A stretch of DNA of 52,868 nt from Clostridia bacterium. GTDB taxonomy: Bacteria; Bacillota; Clostridia; TANB77; CAG-465. The notes under the pieces are model-generated. The model saw only the letters and a program-made list of their open reading frames with translations. It did not search any database and had not been told where the DNA came from. The stretch lies in contig JAQUGQ010000012.1 of assembly GCA_028684095.1 (NCBI GenBank), positions 1-52,868 of the forward strand, written 5' to 3'. Shown here in pieces: positions 21,501-26,901 of the stretch; the first letter of the stretch is position 1, and each line of letters begins with the position of its first letter. The position numbers and the translations under genes were made by a program.

Positions 21501-21742
21501 TACTTTATTGTAATAAAAATATAAATATAATGATTATAAATAAACCTTAGGTTTATTTGGAAGGATATTGATTTAAATTTATATAGAAAGAGAAAGTAAT
21601 AAAAAAGCATGTCAAAATTTGTTATAATTAATTCGATTAATCATTATATATAAAATAGTTTTTAAATATAATAAAAATTACATAAATAGATATTACAACT
21701 TTTGTTGACATTATTTGTCGTACGATTTATGCAATAAAAGTA
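21501..21742. other. divergent spacer, non-coding
   Basis: This spacer between the HD-GYP gene and the Tad-like operon shows no coding signal. It holds a short hairpin (AAATAAACCT pairing with AGGTTTATTT near 21540-21558). Confidence 0.4.
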
Positions 21743-21771
21743 TTGACATTTAAAATCCTGTATGTTATATT
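21743..21771 (+). promoter_or_regulatory. promoter of the Tad-like operon
   Basis: TTGACA (21743-21748), a 17-bp spacer and TATATT (21766-21771). The strong ribosome site AAGGAGGTGA follows at 21787-21796. Confidence 0.75.
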
Positions 21772-21799
21772 ATTATCAATCCACTAAGGAGGTGATTAC

Positions 21800-22615
21800 A
21801 TTTATGCTCTAGTTCTTTTTATATTTTCTATATTTTTATCTTATTATATAATTTCATCCTATTATATTTCTACTAAGTCCAAATTTATTATTAGTAACAA
21901 ATATTTCAGTTCTATTAAATTTAATATTAGTTTTCTTGAATCAAATTTTACAAAACACAAAAATATTTTGAATAATTTGGGAAATCCGTATGGAATTAGT
22001 TTATTAAAATTTAATTTAATTAAATACATTATTTCACCATTAGTTTTTATTCTAGTTGCCTTTAGATCACATAATATAGTTTTATCATTAATTTATTCTT
22101 TATGCTTTTTTTATATTCCAAATTTTTTAATTTATATTTACACTAAAAATGAATCTGTAAAAATAATAAACGATATATCTGAAGTCTCAAATAATTTAAA
22201 GTTAGCACTTTCATGCAATATTCCTTTACATGAGTCATTAAAATATGTTAAAGATAATATTGAATATGCGAGATTTAAAGAAGGATTTAATATCTTTATA
22301 AATGATTATTTGTTGTATAACTTCAATATGATAAAAGCTATAGATAATTTCAAACTAAAATTTAATTCATATGAATTTAATATGTTCTTAAATATAATTC
22401 TTCAGGGAGACAGAGAAGGAAAAATAATAGAATCTTTAATAGTATTTTCAGAAACATTAGAGTTATCATATTTTAAATATTTAAAATACAAAGAAGTAAA
22501 AAGAATATTATTTGTTACATTGGCATCTATAATTTCTTTAATAAATATAATTATATTAGCAATATATCCTATAGCAACACAAATATCAGAGAATTTACAA
22601 AATATATTTAATTAG
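21800..22615 (+). CDS. GspF/TadC-like pilus platform protein with apparent ATT start
   Basis: GspF-type proteins are the inner-membrane platform of type II secretion, type IV pilus and Tad systems. The frame is open from 21788, but its first ATG, GTG or TTG is the TTG at 21968, which lacks a ribosome site. AAGGAGGTGA (21787-21796) is ideally spaced for ATT at 21800, giving a 271-residue protein with an N-terminal helix (about 2-22). A soluble GspF core and a C-terminal helix near 240-262 follow. The out-of-frame ATG at 21804 stops after two codons. Start use of AUU, as in infC, or a one-base error are the two readings. It is first in its operon. Confidence 0.6.
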   Translation: MYALVLFIFSIFLSYYIISSYYISTKSKFIISNKYFSSIKFNISFLESNFTKHKNILNNLGNPYGISLLKFNLIKYIISPLVFILVAFRSHNIVLSLIYSLCFFYIPNFLIYIYTKNESVKIINDISEVSNNLKLALSCNIPLHESLKYVKDNIEYARFKEGFNIFINDYLLYNFNMIKAIDNFKLKFNSYEFNMFLNIILQGDREGKIIESLIVFSETLELSYFKYLKYKEVKRILFVTLASIISLINIIILAIYPIATQISENLQNIFN

Positions 22616-22629
22616 AAAGGAAGTGTATA

Positions 22630-22866
22630 TTGAAAATGAATAAATTACAAAGGATTATACTTAAACTAAAAACAAAAGAACAAAATAGATTAAAAAATAA
22701 AAGAGGTGCTGAATTAGTAGAGAGTATATTAATGGTTGGAGTAGCTATAGCATTAATTGTAGTAGTGTTTTATCCTCAAATAATGCTTTTAATGAACGTT
22801 GGATTTAGTAATATGGAATCATGGTTTGTAGATGCATTAATAGAAATAGGACAACCAGTGATATAA
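22630..22866 (+). CDS. Flp-like prepilin
   Basis: This 78-residue protein has a basic leader of 26 residues and a prepilin-peptidase motif: cleavage expected after Gly26, before AELVE, with Glu31 at position +5. A continuous hydrophobic helix (about 32-50) follows and then a short tail. That is the layout of Flp-type pilins and type IV prepilins. The TTG at 22630 is 6 bases from AGGAAG and suits better than the ATG two codons later. The stop overlaps the next start as TAATG. It is probably the major fibre subunit of the system encoded here. Confidence 0.7.
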   Translation: MKMNKLQRIILKLKTKEQNRLKNKRGAELVESILMVGVAIALIVVVFYPQIMLLMNVGFSNMESWFVDALIEIGQPVI

Positions 22867-23525
22867 TGAAATTTAAAAGAAATATATATATTCTAATCAT
22901 AGCGATAGTTATATACTTTACTTTAATAGTGTTTTATAAAAAAGTTATTTTGAAAGATGAGTTTAATTATGTTTATGCTCTTAGTACAAATGTTTCTAGA
23001 GGTGACAAAGTTTTAGAATCAGGTTTAGTTAAAATTAAAATTTCTAGTAATATTTTAGACAAATATATGACTGTATATACAGGACAAGGATATTATAGAG
23101 ATGATTACTTAGAAGGATCTATAGTGCTTGAAGATATGATTTTATCAAATGATGAATATATTAATGCGGGAATAAATACTGAGATAATATCAATAAAATT
23201 AGATTCTGCTGAAGCTGCTGCATCTTATCAGATTGAAAAGGGAAGTGTAATAAATATCTTTTATTCAGCAAAATCATCTGAAATAGAAAGTGTATTTAAT
23301 AGTATAAATAAAGAAAGTGTTATTAGTAATAATTTAGAAAGTGGATATGTAACAATGAAGATTTTAGAAAATACTAAAATAATAAGTTGTTATGATAAAT
23401 ATGGAAATATAACAAAAACAGGAAATGTTGTTGAGACCATATTGGTAGAAGTATCTAAAGATGAAAGTATAAAAATAAATAATTTAAAAAATTATGGAAA
23501 ATTTAGTATTAGTATAATAAAGTAA
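22866..23525 (+). CDS. CpaB/RcpC-like SAF-domain protein
   Basis: The 219-residue protein has one N-terminal helix (about 7-24) and then a SAF-like region. Segments include RGDKVLESGLVKIKI, a LEGSIVLEDMILS motif and INAGINTEIISIKLD. This order matches CpaB/RcpC proteins of Tad (Flp) pilus loci, thought to act at the cell surface during pilus assembly. The ATG at 22866 overlaps the stop of the prepilin gene, so translation is coupled. A longer frame starting at 22821 lies inside the prepilin gene and is not credible. Confidence 0.7.
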   Translation: MKFKRNIYILIIAIVIYFTLIVFYKKVILKDEFNYVYALSTNVSRGDKVLESGLVKIKISSNILDKYMTVYTGQGYYRDDYLEGSIVLEDMILSNDEYINAGINTEIISIKLDSAEAAASYQIEKGSVINIFYSAKSSEIESVFNSINKESVISNNLESGYVTMKILENTKIISCYDKYGNITKTGNVVETILVEVSKDESIKINNLKNYGKFSISIIK

Positions 23526-23534
23526 GGAGGAATT

Positions 23535-23903
23535 ATGAATATTCTTTTTATATATAATCTAGAAAAAATAGAATTTAAAAATATATCTTTAAAAATCGAA
23601 GAAAGTATAAAAAATATAATGAAAGACACAATCATTAATATAGTTAGAAAAGATAAGGTAAGTTATAGATTAAAACCAGATATATATGTAATATTATCAG
23701 ATGATCACGATAAAGTAGCTGGATATTTTGAAAAGATAAAAGATAAAAACAAGTCTATAGTTTTAACTAATAATATATCAAGTTCAAATATTTTAAATAT
23801 AATTGAAAATACGAAGAACGTTTGTTATATGAAAAATGATATAGAAATATTGGTTAGAAAAATATATAATGTTTACATCGAAAGTAAAGAAAAATATGTA
23901 TAA
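23535..23903 (+). CDS. unknown small protein of the Tad-like operon
   Basis: The 122-residue soluble protein alternates beta strands and helices (MNILFIYN at the start, then KPDIYVILSDD and SIVLTNN). This resembles a receiver-like fold without the phosphorylation signature. Tad loci often encode TadZ/CpaE, whose N-terminal part is an atypical receiver, so a stand-alone relative is possible, but there is no motif to prove it and no P-loop ATPase part. AAGGAGG precedes the ATG. Its end overlaps the next gene by about 8 to 35 bases. Confidence 0.45.
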   Translation: MNILFIYNLEKIEFKNISLKIEESIKNIMKDTIINIVRKDKVSYRLKPDIYVILSDDHDKVAGYFEKIKDKNKSIVLTNNISSSNILNIIENTKNVCYMKNDIEILVRKIYNVYIESKEKYV

Positions 23904-24471
23904 GAGAATATGTATAATTTCTATTTTAGTAATTATTAGTACTTTTATTATTATTATATACCAAAATAATAATAAGAGTGATTTTGAATATACTCCGAAA
24001 AATATTAAAGAAAATATTAAAGAAAATATTAATTACTTTAATAATAACGTTTTAACTAACATAGATCAATTTGATAATTATTTTAGCGATAGATATGTGA
24101 TTATAAATAGCGGTGGATTAAGAATAGGTAAAAGCAAGAATGAGTTAGATAATGGTTATTACGATGTAGATCTGAGAGTAAAAGAAAAATATATTGAGTT
24201 ATATATAAATAAATTATTTAAAGAATTTGATATAAATGTAATATGCAATGAAGCTTATGTTAAAGAAATAACAGAGTATATTATAAAATTATTTAATTTT
24301 AAAATAGATGAAAAAGCTTTTTCTCAAGTGATTATAACAAATTATGAACTAATTAGAGATATAGACAGAAACAATGTGCAAAATGTGGATAAAACTATAT
24401 TAATAAATGACATAAATATAGTTATTACAGTATATGAAAATATGCTTGTACTGAAAATGGGTGATATATAG
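23869..24471 (+). CDS. unknown membrane-anchored protein of the Tad-like operon
   Basis: This 200-residue protein has one N-terminal helix (about 13-31) and an otherwise soluble, probably extracellular domain containing VIINSGGLRIGKS. No family is recognised. The start could be the ATG at 23869 or the one at 23896, because both have weak purine-rich sites upstream. Either start overlaps the previous gene. Its stop directly abuts the next start, so it belongs to the operon. Single-helix proteins of this kind in pilus loci are often minor subunits or assembly factors; that is inference. Confidence 0.45.
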   Translation: MFTSKVKKNMYKRICIISILVIISTFIIIIYQNNNKSDFEYTPKNIKENIKENINYFNNNVLTNIDQFDNYFSDRYVIINSGGLRIGKSKNELDNGYYDVDLRVKEKYIELYINKLFKEFDINVICNEAYVKEITEYIIKLFNFKIDEKAFSQVIITNYELIRDIDRNNVQNVDKTILINDINIVITVYENMLVLKMGDI

Positions 24472-26070
24472 ATGAATATTAAGTTTATTAGTAAAACACT
24501 AATTACAATTGTTTTTTTAATTACTGTAAGTCCTAATATATATGGAATATCAGATAATTTTAAGTTTGTAATAGATACAATTGGTATACCTAGATATAAT
24601 GTTTATTTAGAAGAAATAAACGAAGATATATATAATGCATATAATGTATTTGTATATTCTAATCCACAAGGTTTGCTATGGCATAATGAGCAAAGGTTTA
24701 AAAGTGTAGAAAATCTTGGTAAGTGGACAAGATATAACGGTTTATATAGAGGTATTGGAGAAAGAGGAGAGTATTATCTACTTGGCAGTAGCTATAGCGG
24801 ATCAGTTATAAGTAATGTATATTTTCCAGCAGATTTTCTTCCTGAAACTACTCCGGATAAATGGATATATTTAGTTACAAACAATGCATATGAATCATGG
24901 TTTAATAAAGGAATATATAAATACGAGGAACAATTAGAATATATGAAAAATGCAGATTTATTATTTGATCAGATTGATTATAATGCTGGAACTATTAATT
25001 CATATAACCTAGTTTCATATAATATATCTGTAAATAAAATTGGAATGAATAAAATGACTTTAAATACAGCATCCACATGGAAAACTAACGGAATTATAAC
25101 AGCAAGAAGATTAACAAATCTTTCACAAATACGTAATGCGATATTTGCTACTGCACCTATGTCGGCAAATGCCGATATATTATCAAGCATTATAGTAGAT
25201 GATAAATTTGTTATAAAATCAAATGAAGATAAAATTATAATACCTATAACAATATCAGGTGAAGCAATTAACTTAAGTAATTATGCAAAAGAAAAACATA
25301 TAAAGGAAATAACATCAATTCTTTATATAAATAATAAAGAAATAACAAGAGTAAGTGGCAGTAAAACTGTAAAAGTGGACAAAAATATATTGTTTACAGT
25401 TTCTAGAGAAAATTATCAAATTCCAAATACTTATCCCATAGATATAAAGGTGAAAAGTTACCTTTATACAGAGTTTAGCATTGATGGTTTAATGCAACAT
25501 GAAATTAAAAAACGTATAAATGTGCAGGTGATAGAAAAAGAAGTGATTCCAATAAATAATATTAAACTATCAGTGTTGGAAAAAAGTGATAATAATTTAG
25601 TTGTAAGACCACTTGTTAAAACATTAAATACAACAAATTCGGATTCTGAAGGCATAATTGAAGCGGGTAAATATTTAGCTATTAGATTAGATAAAAACAT
25701 TGATATCTTAAATGTCAAATGTTATATCAATAATATTGAAACTGATTATCAGCAAATATATACAGGTGATAAATATATTGTTTTAAAAATATGTATTGAT
25801 GAAAAATTAAGTAATACAATTAAAAGTTGGAACTATTTAAGAGAGAAAACTAAAAACTATTTTGATATAAAGTTTTCTGAAATTGGTGAAAGAATTTCTA
25901 ATCCTAACATCCTAAAAATAATATATAATTCTAATTACACTAAGTTATTAAAGTTTGATAGTATAGATAAATATAGTAATAATATAAATTTTTCTTTTGA
26001 AAATAATGTTTTGAACAGTGAAGAAATTAAAAATAGTATATCAATAGAAGATTGGATTATAGATGAATAA
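24472..26070 (+). CDS. large secreted protein of the Tad-like operon, unknown
   Basis: The 532-residue protein has a clear signal peptide (about 1-25, ending NIYG) and no later membrane helix, so it should be exported. The mature part is rich in Tyr, Asn, Ile and Trp at the start (for example WHNEQRF and KWTRYNGLYRGIGERG). It continues with beta-rich segments that could be Ig-like. I find no enzymatic motif and no LPXTG anchor. It starts immediately after the previous stop and overlaps the next gene by 8 bases. Position suggests a pilus-associated adhesin or surface factor, which is inference. Confidence 0.5.
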   Translation: MNIKFISKTLITIVFLITVSPNIYGISDNFKFVIDTIGIPRYNVYLEEINEDIYNAYNVFVYSNPQGLLWHNEQRFKSVENLGKWTRYNGLYRGIGERGEYYLLGSSYSGSVISNVYFPADFLPETTPDKWIYLVTNNAYESWFNKGIYKYEEQLEYMKNADLLFDQIDYNAGTINSYNLVSYNISVNKIGMNKMTLNTASTWKTNGIITARRLTNLSQIRNAIFATAPMSANADILSSIIVDDKFVIKSNEDKIIIPITISGEAINLSNYAKEKHIKEITSILYINNKEITRVSGSKTVKVDKNILFTVSRENYQIPNTYPIDIKVKSYLYTEFSIDGLMQHEIKKRINVQVIEKEVIPINNIKLSVLEKSDNNLVVRPLVKTLNTTNSDSEGIIEAGKYLAIRLDKNIDILNVKCYINNIETDYQQIYTGDKYIVLKICIDEKLSNTIKSWNYLREKTKNYFDIKFSEIGERISNPNILKIIYNSNYTKLLKFDSIDKYSNNINFSFENNVLNSEEIKNSISIEDWIIDE

Positions 26071-26485
26071 TAAAAAAGGTAGCATTGAAATATTTATATT
26101 AACTATAACTTTAATGATGATGTTTATAATATTAACAATTATATTTTTACTTTATGTTCAAATAAATTCTTGTGTATTTAATGTTAAAAGTGATTTATTT
26201 TATATAGCACAAAATGCATACTTAGCAGTTGATTATAAAGAATTAGCTTATTCAGATTATGAAATAAATGAACCGATGCTTAAAGAAAAAATAATTCTGT
26301 TATTACACCTTAATTATCCTAATTATAATTTTCATATAAATGAGATAAAATACGAACATGTAAGTAAAAGTGTATTAATAGACATAAATTTGTTGATACA
26401 GCCTATAGTTTTAAATAATTTAATTAAAATTTTTAGTTTAAATATCAAAGAAAATGTAAAATTAAAATTAATGGAGGTAAAATGA
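26063..26485 (+). CDS. TadE-like pseudopilin
   Basis: The 140-residue protein has a very short leader (MNNKKG) and a long hydrophobic helix (about 10-33), followed by a soluble domain. This is the layout of TadE-type pseudopilins. A prepilin-peptidase cut after Gly6 is possible, but the glutamate is at +3 (SIE) rather than the usual +5. It overlaps both neighbours by a few bases (ATGA type), showing translational coupling. A structurally similar gene follows at once, as in tadE-tadF pairs. Confidence 0.55.
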   Translation: MNNKKGSIEIFILTITLMMMFIILTIIFLLYVQINSCVFNVKSDLFYIAQNAYLAVDYKELAYSDYEINEPMLKEKIILLLHLNYPNYNFHINEIKYEHVSKSVLIDINLLIQPIVLNNLIKIFSLNIKENVKLKLMEVK

Positions 26486-26901
26486 ATAATATAAGATATA
26501 AAAATGGTAATAGTGTAATTACAATACCAATCGTATTAGTCATATCAATCTTTATGATAATAATTATAGGAACATATATAATAAACTCTATAATACCTTT
26601 TATATACCATCAAAAACTAATTACTTTAGCAAATAAATATATGTTTGTAATTGAAAAATTTGGATATCTTACAGAGGAAGAAAAAAAGTTACTGGAGTAT
26701 GATTTAAATGATTCTGGATTTAATATATCTAAAATAACATTAAAGTATCCAAATGAATTGAAAAAATATGGAGAATTAATTGAGTTTGAAATTGATTATA
26801 TATTGGTTTTGAAGACTCCTACAATATCTAACGGAACATATAATTTGATAGAAAAAGAAACTATTTTAAAAGTAAGAAAAAATAGTTTCTCAAAAATATG
26901 A
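26482..26901 (+). CDS. TadE/DUF4320-like pseudopilin
   Basis: The 139-residue protein repeats the plan of the gene before it: a short polar leader (MNNIRYKNG), a long hydrophobic helix (about 11-38) and a soluble C-terminal domain. This matches TadE/TadF-like or DUF4320-like minor pseudopilins. It starts inside the end of the previous gene (ATGA overlap) with TGGAGG upstream. It is the last gene of the operon. Its stop lies two bases from the stop of the converging mecA-like gene, with no terminator hairpin between them. Confidence 0.5.
   Translation: MNNIRYKNGNSVITIPIVLVISIFMIIIIGTYIINSIIPFIYHQKLITLANKYMFVIEKFGYLTEEEKKLLEYDLNDSGFNISKITLKYPNELKKYGELIEFEIDYILVLKTPTISNGTYNLIEKETILKVRKNSFSKI

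Follow-up and report, generated by a model that had tools for sequence, protein, structure and literature searches.

Tad is the textbook example of a machine whose genes travel together in a single locus. Denise et al. (PMC6668835), in their survey, describe it as almost exclusively single-locus, scattered cases being very rare, and tadV may lie apart. In Clostridia, tad operons with Flp-like pilins have been described (Imam et al. 2011, PMC3244431). The system analysed here shares with these Gram-positive Tad/Flp loci TadZ, TadA, TadB, TadC, RcpC/CpaB, TadE-like proteins and a Flp-like pilin devoid of the Tyr at +6. However, theirs are single operons, most of them with tadV, whereas here we find two distant operons and a lone peptidase. 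Compared with the systems surveyed by Denise et al., the components are the same, and ours is an inherited, family-wide two-locus case of that rare arrangement. What is known is the Tad pilus; the variant is its inherited split and the nesting of its motor genes in a VirB4 operon. In the literature searched we found nothing specific on split Tad loci, or on Tad combined with VirB4.

The window, that is, the whole stretch of DNA analysed, is one entire contig (G000:C3, 52,868 bp) of a 38-contig assembly; all the genomes compared with it are drafts. Since the pilus operon lies in the middle of this whole contig, nothing in it is truncated. According to the ORF listing of the window it comprises eight ORFs on the + strand (21800-26901), encoding TadC, a Flp-like prepilin, a CpaB/RcpC-type protein, two small proteins, an exoprotein with an Athe_2463 domain and two TadE/TadF-like proteins:

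21716..21722, + strand: Spo0A-box-like TGTCGTA upstream of the promoter, one mismatch to TGTCGAA, at a conserved position
21743..21771, + strand: putative sigma-A-type promoter, TTGACA-17-TATATT with TG, 11/12 match, the best in the region
21786..21792, + strand: Shine-Dalgarno sequence AAGGAGG of tadC
21800..22615, + strand: w1, TadC-like platform protein, 271 aa with a presumed ATT start, assigned through T2SSF in relatives and a profile match to c5
22630..22866, + strand: w2, Flp-like type IVb prepilin, 78 aa (76 aa from the ATG at 22636), PF16982
22866..23525, + strand: w3, CpaB/RcpC-type SAF protein, 219 aa, assigned through relatives' profiles
23535..23903, + strand: w4, small protein, 122 aa, poorly conserved
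23896..24471, + strand: w5, about 191 aa, N-terminal membrane anchor
24472..26070, + strand: w6, exported protein, 532 aa, Athe_2463 domain (49-219) and Ig-like C-terminal sandwiches
26063..26485, + strand: w7, TadE-like, minor-pilin-like protein, 140 aa, no Glu at +5, assigned by position and shape only
26482..26901, + strand: w8, TadF/DUF4320-like protein, 139 aa, no Glu at +5, assigned through relatives' profiles

An earlier note on this DNA had described eight tightly packed genes under a single promoter, and this was borne out: the intergenic gaps from w1 to w8 are 14, -1, 9, -11, 0, -8 and -4 nt, and one sigma-A-type promoter precedes them. Pfam alone names just the Flp-like pilin in the window; the other identities were added by family alignments and NCBIfam. 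Indeed, T2SSF is weak in w1 itself (E 0.26) and is matched by 8 of 15 relatives (best 7.5e-6), and comparison of the w1 profile with that of TadB (c5, below) gave a probability of 82.5%. The prepilin w2 matches Flp1_like (PF16982, 2.8e-5, short of the curated cut-off); its cleavage motif reads K-R-G↓A-E-L-V-E, with no Tyr at +6, and the Flp-type G↓xxxxE with its hydrophobic stretch is retained by most relatives. The window's w3 has no match of its own, and 6-7 of 12 relatives match SAF/RcpC (best 5.1e-7, RcpC). Among the w8 proteins of 14 relatives, seven match DUF4320 and one matches TadF. The GspF-like, prepilin and SAF/CpaB-like types proposed in the earlier note thus hold, through the window proteins or the relatives' profiles; as for its two putative TadE-like proteins, w8 is likened to TadF/DUF4320 through relatives' profiles and w7 to TadE by position and shape only.

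Of the three proteins that the same note had left without a type (w4, w5 and w6), w6 is now assigned. That w4 might be a detached receiver domain of TadZ was considered and rejected, as there was no match. The w5 gene is present in 10 of the compared loci and unrecognised in four others. The exported w6 matches the NCBIfam Athe_2463 domain model NF047340 (58.7 bits, the cut-off being 36), as do 13/13 relatives. In the predicted fold its C-terminal half consists of Ig-like sandwiches (best Z 8.9, unspecific), the N-terminal Athe_2463 part being of low confidence. The C-terminal part also matches a large exoprotein at the Tad locus of a genome of the sister family f2 (G040). Athe_2463 itself is an abundant, C5-sugar-specific extracellular protein of Caldicellulosiruptor bescii, of unknown function there (PMC5865380). 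We consider w6 to be probably surface- or pilus-associated.

Fourteen further genomes of the 36-genome family have the operon too, next to mecA-like and rpsF genes, which rules out a chance run of ORFs. In one of these 14 loci (L088) a contig end cuts it after cpaB; a fifteenth other genome with pilus-operon sequence, G024, holds a decayed remnant. As the earlier note had remarked, the motor ATPase and the prepilin peptidase are missing from the locus: the profile search of the genome's contigs gave no T2SSE and no Peptidase_A24 match within the window, and no ATPase, TadB or peptidase is found there.

They are encoded elsewhere in the genome, where the note had proposed to search for cpaF, tadV/cpaA and tadZ. 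The genome has a second Tad operon in the middle of contig C22 (C22:33,900-40,400), in the order c1 (184 aa), c2 (VirB4-like, 582 aa), c3 (TadZ-like), c4 (TadA), c5 (TadB) and c6 (236 aa), followed by yabG and spo0A. The c4 product is a TadA/CpaF (T2SSE, 2e-27), whose closest solved structure is CpaF (2e-34), with VirB11 behind it. TadB is recognised in c5 by T2SSF (30.7 bits against a cut-off of 25.2). The c3 product matches CbiA above the cut-off and the solved structures of MinD/ParA, carries the Walker A motif GTSGSGKS and is encoded directly 5' of tadA, as in family f2. In c2 we recognise a VirB4 relative (4ag5, 1.9e-38; NF045971, 190 bits, under the cut-off of 325). The tadA-tadB pair thus sits inside a VirB4-like operon, c1-VirB4-tadZ-[tadA-tadB]-c6. 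The last gene, 3' of tadB (L012:11938-12645), encodes a conserved all-helical protein with a confident model (pLDDT 88.6), which had no match in the PDB at E<=0.001. Adjoining this operon, the full spo0A is accompanied by another copy that has just the receiver (155 aa; L012:9388-10927).

The sole Peptidase_A24 catalytic domain of the genome belongs to a 246-aa protein encoded on contig C4, unlinked to either operon, with the motifs IDYRFQLIPD and GFGD. Elsewhere on C22, one ORF combines an A24_N domain (108 bits) with a pilin-like sequence (L014:6369-7217), separate from the catalytic A24 domain on C4. The same contig encodes a separate type IV pilus (C22:1-12000), which has a PilB, a PilT and a PilC to itself. 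Contig C14 has ParA/ParB-like genes, then a gene for an exported protein of 602 aa and a TadA-TadB-TadC-TadE-like set (L013:3353-10853), an arrangement that resembles a Tad-like system of a plasmid or integrative element. As a partner of the pilus operon this set was rejected: it has TadB/TadC-like proteins of its own, and profile comparisons with w1 and w6 were empty; its small TadE-like protein showed a weak likeness to w8 (probability 32%).

The two operons occur together. Among the 36 genomes of the family, TadA of the c4 type is found in 15, TadC of the w1 type in 16 and both in 14, always on different contigs; in the 385 genomes of the order the counts are 34, 34 and 31. Fisher tests of this joint occurrence gave 4e-7 (family) and 7e-39 (order), p-values that ignore kinship. 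The gene order of both operons is conserved among family members, and in most lineages without the pilus tadA-tadB and the pilus operon are co-absent. When kinship was counted on the c2 tree, TadA had some four losses and the pilus operon five; two pairs of losses are independent and stand on well-supported branches, so that joint loss is consistent yet statistically thin. Since the type IV pilus owns its PilB, PilT and PilC, and tadA-tadB and the pilus operon are mostly co-absent, the Tad motor is dedicated to the pilus operon. The earlier suggestion of a motor encoded elsewhere and shared is therefore right as to place (C22 and C4) and wrong as to sharing, the peptidase alone being probably common to the Tad and type IV pili. 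Likewise, a single GspF-like gene instead of the TadB-TadC pair is true of the window; in the genome the pair exists, but apart (w1 and c5).

How does this layout relate to ordinary Tad loci? The two-operon layout is found in three families (f1, f4 and f5). All Tad core genes usually share one locus; here they lie on separate contigs, or, in relatives with long contigs that hold both operons (G043, G051, G046, G070 and G039), 15-150 kb apart. In contrast, two genomes of the sister family f2 (G036 and G040) carry tadZ-tadA-tadB-tadC-flp-cpaB in a single run. In G036 (L095) tadE/F follow in the same stretch, where cpaB and tadE are separated by genes for an SLH protein and a large exoprotein; in G040 the run lies in L098 and TadE/F-like genes just downstream on the same contig (L127); in a third f2 genome, G044, a contig end breaks the locus after TadB. 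The f2 loci resemble ours in gene order and homologous proteins, with tadE/F downstream; they differ in being unsplit and in having the VirB4-like pair elsewhere (G036 and G044). From these single-run loci we conclude that the window holds half of a rearranged ordinary Tad locus. The linkage of cpaF-tadB to the remainder in relatives, which the earlier note had named as the result that would speak against its own proposal, is thus found in f2, in the same order. Judged from genes and their arrangement, the locus is a rearranged, vertically inherited Tad pilus and not a motorless device.

We therefore read the window as carrying the pilus half of one Tad system encoded as two operons, the motor half being on C22, and give this a probability of about 0.88. 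It draws directly on presence, gene order, conservation in the family, joint occurrence and largely joint loss, and is further favoured by TadZ, which is constrained in genomes with Tad and diverges in those that lack it (identities below). Two genomes do not fit: G002 has an intact pilus operon and a replaced motor operon, and G005, conversely, carries the motor operon but no pilus operon; the few losses on the tree and the draft state of all the genomes also weigh against it. G002 in particular, which retains the operon without TadA, could suggest that another motor drives the pilus, either PilB/PilT or the C14 TadA-like ATPase, all of them present in the analysed genome. This we hold to be very unlikely, as C14 owns its TadB/TadC-like pair and c4-type TadA tracks the pilus operon over 385 genomes. 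Even less credible is the simplified export or pseudopilus device of the earlier note, working without any motor. The window does lack a motor gene, and neither G002 nor the decayed G024 has TadA; but 31 of the 34 genomes with TadC have TadA, the G024 operon is decaying, and the C22 operon exists, so that this proposal is not supported. Finally, drafts throughout, and a window taken from a 38-contig assembly, might mean that one locus was mis-assembled into two, or that the halves come from different organisms. We give this next to no weight, since the same two-piece order recurs with different flanks in three families, and the five genomes above hold both operons on one contig.

A further possibility bears on the nature of the machine. 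The VirB4-like pair c1-c2 and c6, which probably share a transcript with tadZ-tadA-tadB, could be working parts of the pilus, making it a Tad/type IV secretion hybrid with three ATPases, VirB4, TadA and TadZ. In its favor, c2 is a genuine VirB4 relative, and the order c1-c2-tadZ-tadA-tadB(-c6), with overlapping genes, is conserved in three families. On the other hand, c1-c2-c3 persist in each of the family's 20 Tad-less genomes, where exactly tadA-tadB are missing, c6 coming next in 19 of them (in the twentieth, G003, the contig of L141 ends inside c3, the c6 region lying outside the data). Moreover, two f2 genomes (G036 and G044) have c1-c2 alone, away from Tad, on another contig than the Tad run. 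VirB4 is thus separable from Tad. By eye, we recognised no VirB6/VirB8-like channel, VirD4 or relaxase among the L012 ORFs beside c2. The c2 product is like the conjugation ATPases of the CD1110 family (NF045971); unlike them, it is chromosomal, present in 35 of the 36 family genomes, and has no recognised conjugation genes beside it. We regard the hybrid as doubtful, and view with the same reserve the variant in which c1-c2, the TadZ-like ATPase and c6 would form a chromosomal module of their own, entered by the Tad motor genes, with TadZ serving both and VirB4 aiding pilus biogenesis. Every c3 has a Walker A motif. The mean identity of c3 is 45% among Tad-bearing and 33% among Tad-less genomes, and the opposite is seen for c2 (39% and 45%). 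We infer that c3 may act as TadZ where Tad exists and have a second role with c2 and c6.

The exceptions to the two-operon pattern form a series of their own. G005 has kept the motor operon and lost the pilus operon. In G024, just pieces of tadC, cpaB and w4 are left, flp, w6 and tadE/F being gone. G002, of the same genus, has an intact and constrained pilus operon (dN/dS roughly 0.13-0.4) and no TadA; between the same neighbours its motor operon has given way to a gene for a TrlF-like ATPase (708 aa) and an ORF of 115 aa (L128:10849-13454), with a 50-codon remnant of c6. An assembly gap was rejected as the cause, because the locus lies well inside its contig, between unchanged flanks, and holds the replacement cassette. 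A vertically inherited two-locus Tad, together with relatives that retain the motor alone, retain the pilus with a replaced motor or have lost both, offers a natural series on the splitting and decay of a machine. Annotation by locus would label each half incomplete, as it did here. The VirB4/TadZ-like operon around tadA-tadB, which is maintained even where the pair is absent, suggests that these gut Clostridia possess a chromosomal module not yet characterised.

From established knowledge of Tad systems, the products of the two operons would assemble and make pili with an adhesive role, using the shared peptidase. The A24 peptidase of C4 would cleave the Flp-like prepilin, and perhaps the minor pilins too. 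TadZ would position the machine and TadA power the TadB-TadC platform (c5 and w1), which would push pilin into a filament across the monoderm envelope, where a secretin would be unneeded. CpaB and w6 would act outside the membrane, w6 being perhaps adhesive or wall-associated.

Upstream of the relatives' operons, a TTGAC/TATAAT-like pair occupies the same place as the promoter of the window. The Spo0A-box-like motif, considered alone in the window, is not above chance and is notable just for its conserved upstream position: seven of the 15 family loci have an exact TGTCGAA 73-84 nt 5' of tadC, and the motif is found with <=1 mismatch in 14 of 15. In several f5 genomes it is repeated every 10 bp, and four Tad-less genomes have it 5' of c1 as well. 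Spo0A is a candidate regulator of the pilus operon. The start of tadC is unusual, with no ATG, GTG or TTG near its Shine-Dalgarno sequence (21786-21812) and ATT as the codon at 21800. The codon at this position is ATT or ATA in 12 of the 15 loci compared, the window included. An overlapping out-of-frame ATG is present in 15/15 loci, followed one codon later by a stop in 12/15, two of them counted after a one-codon shift of register was corrected. This would fit either initiation at a non-AUG codon or control by a start-stop element.
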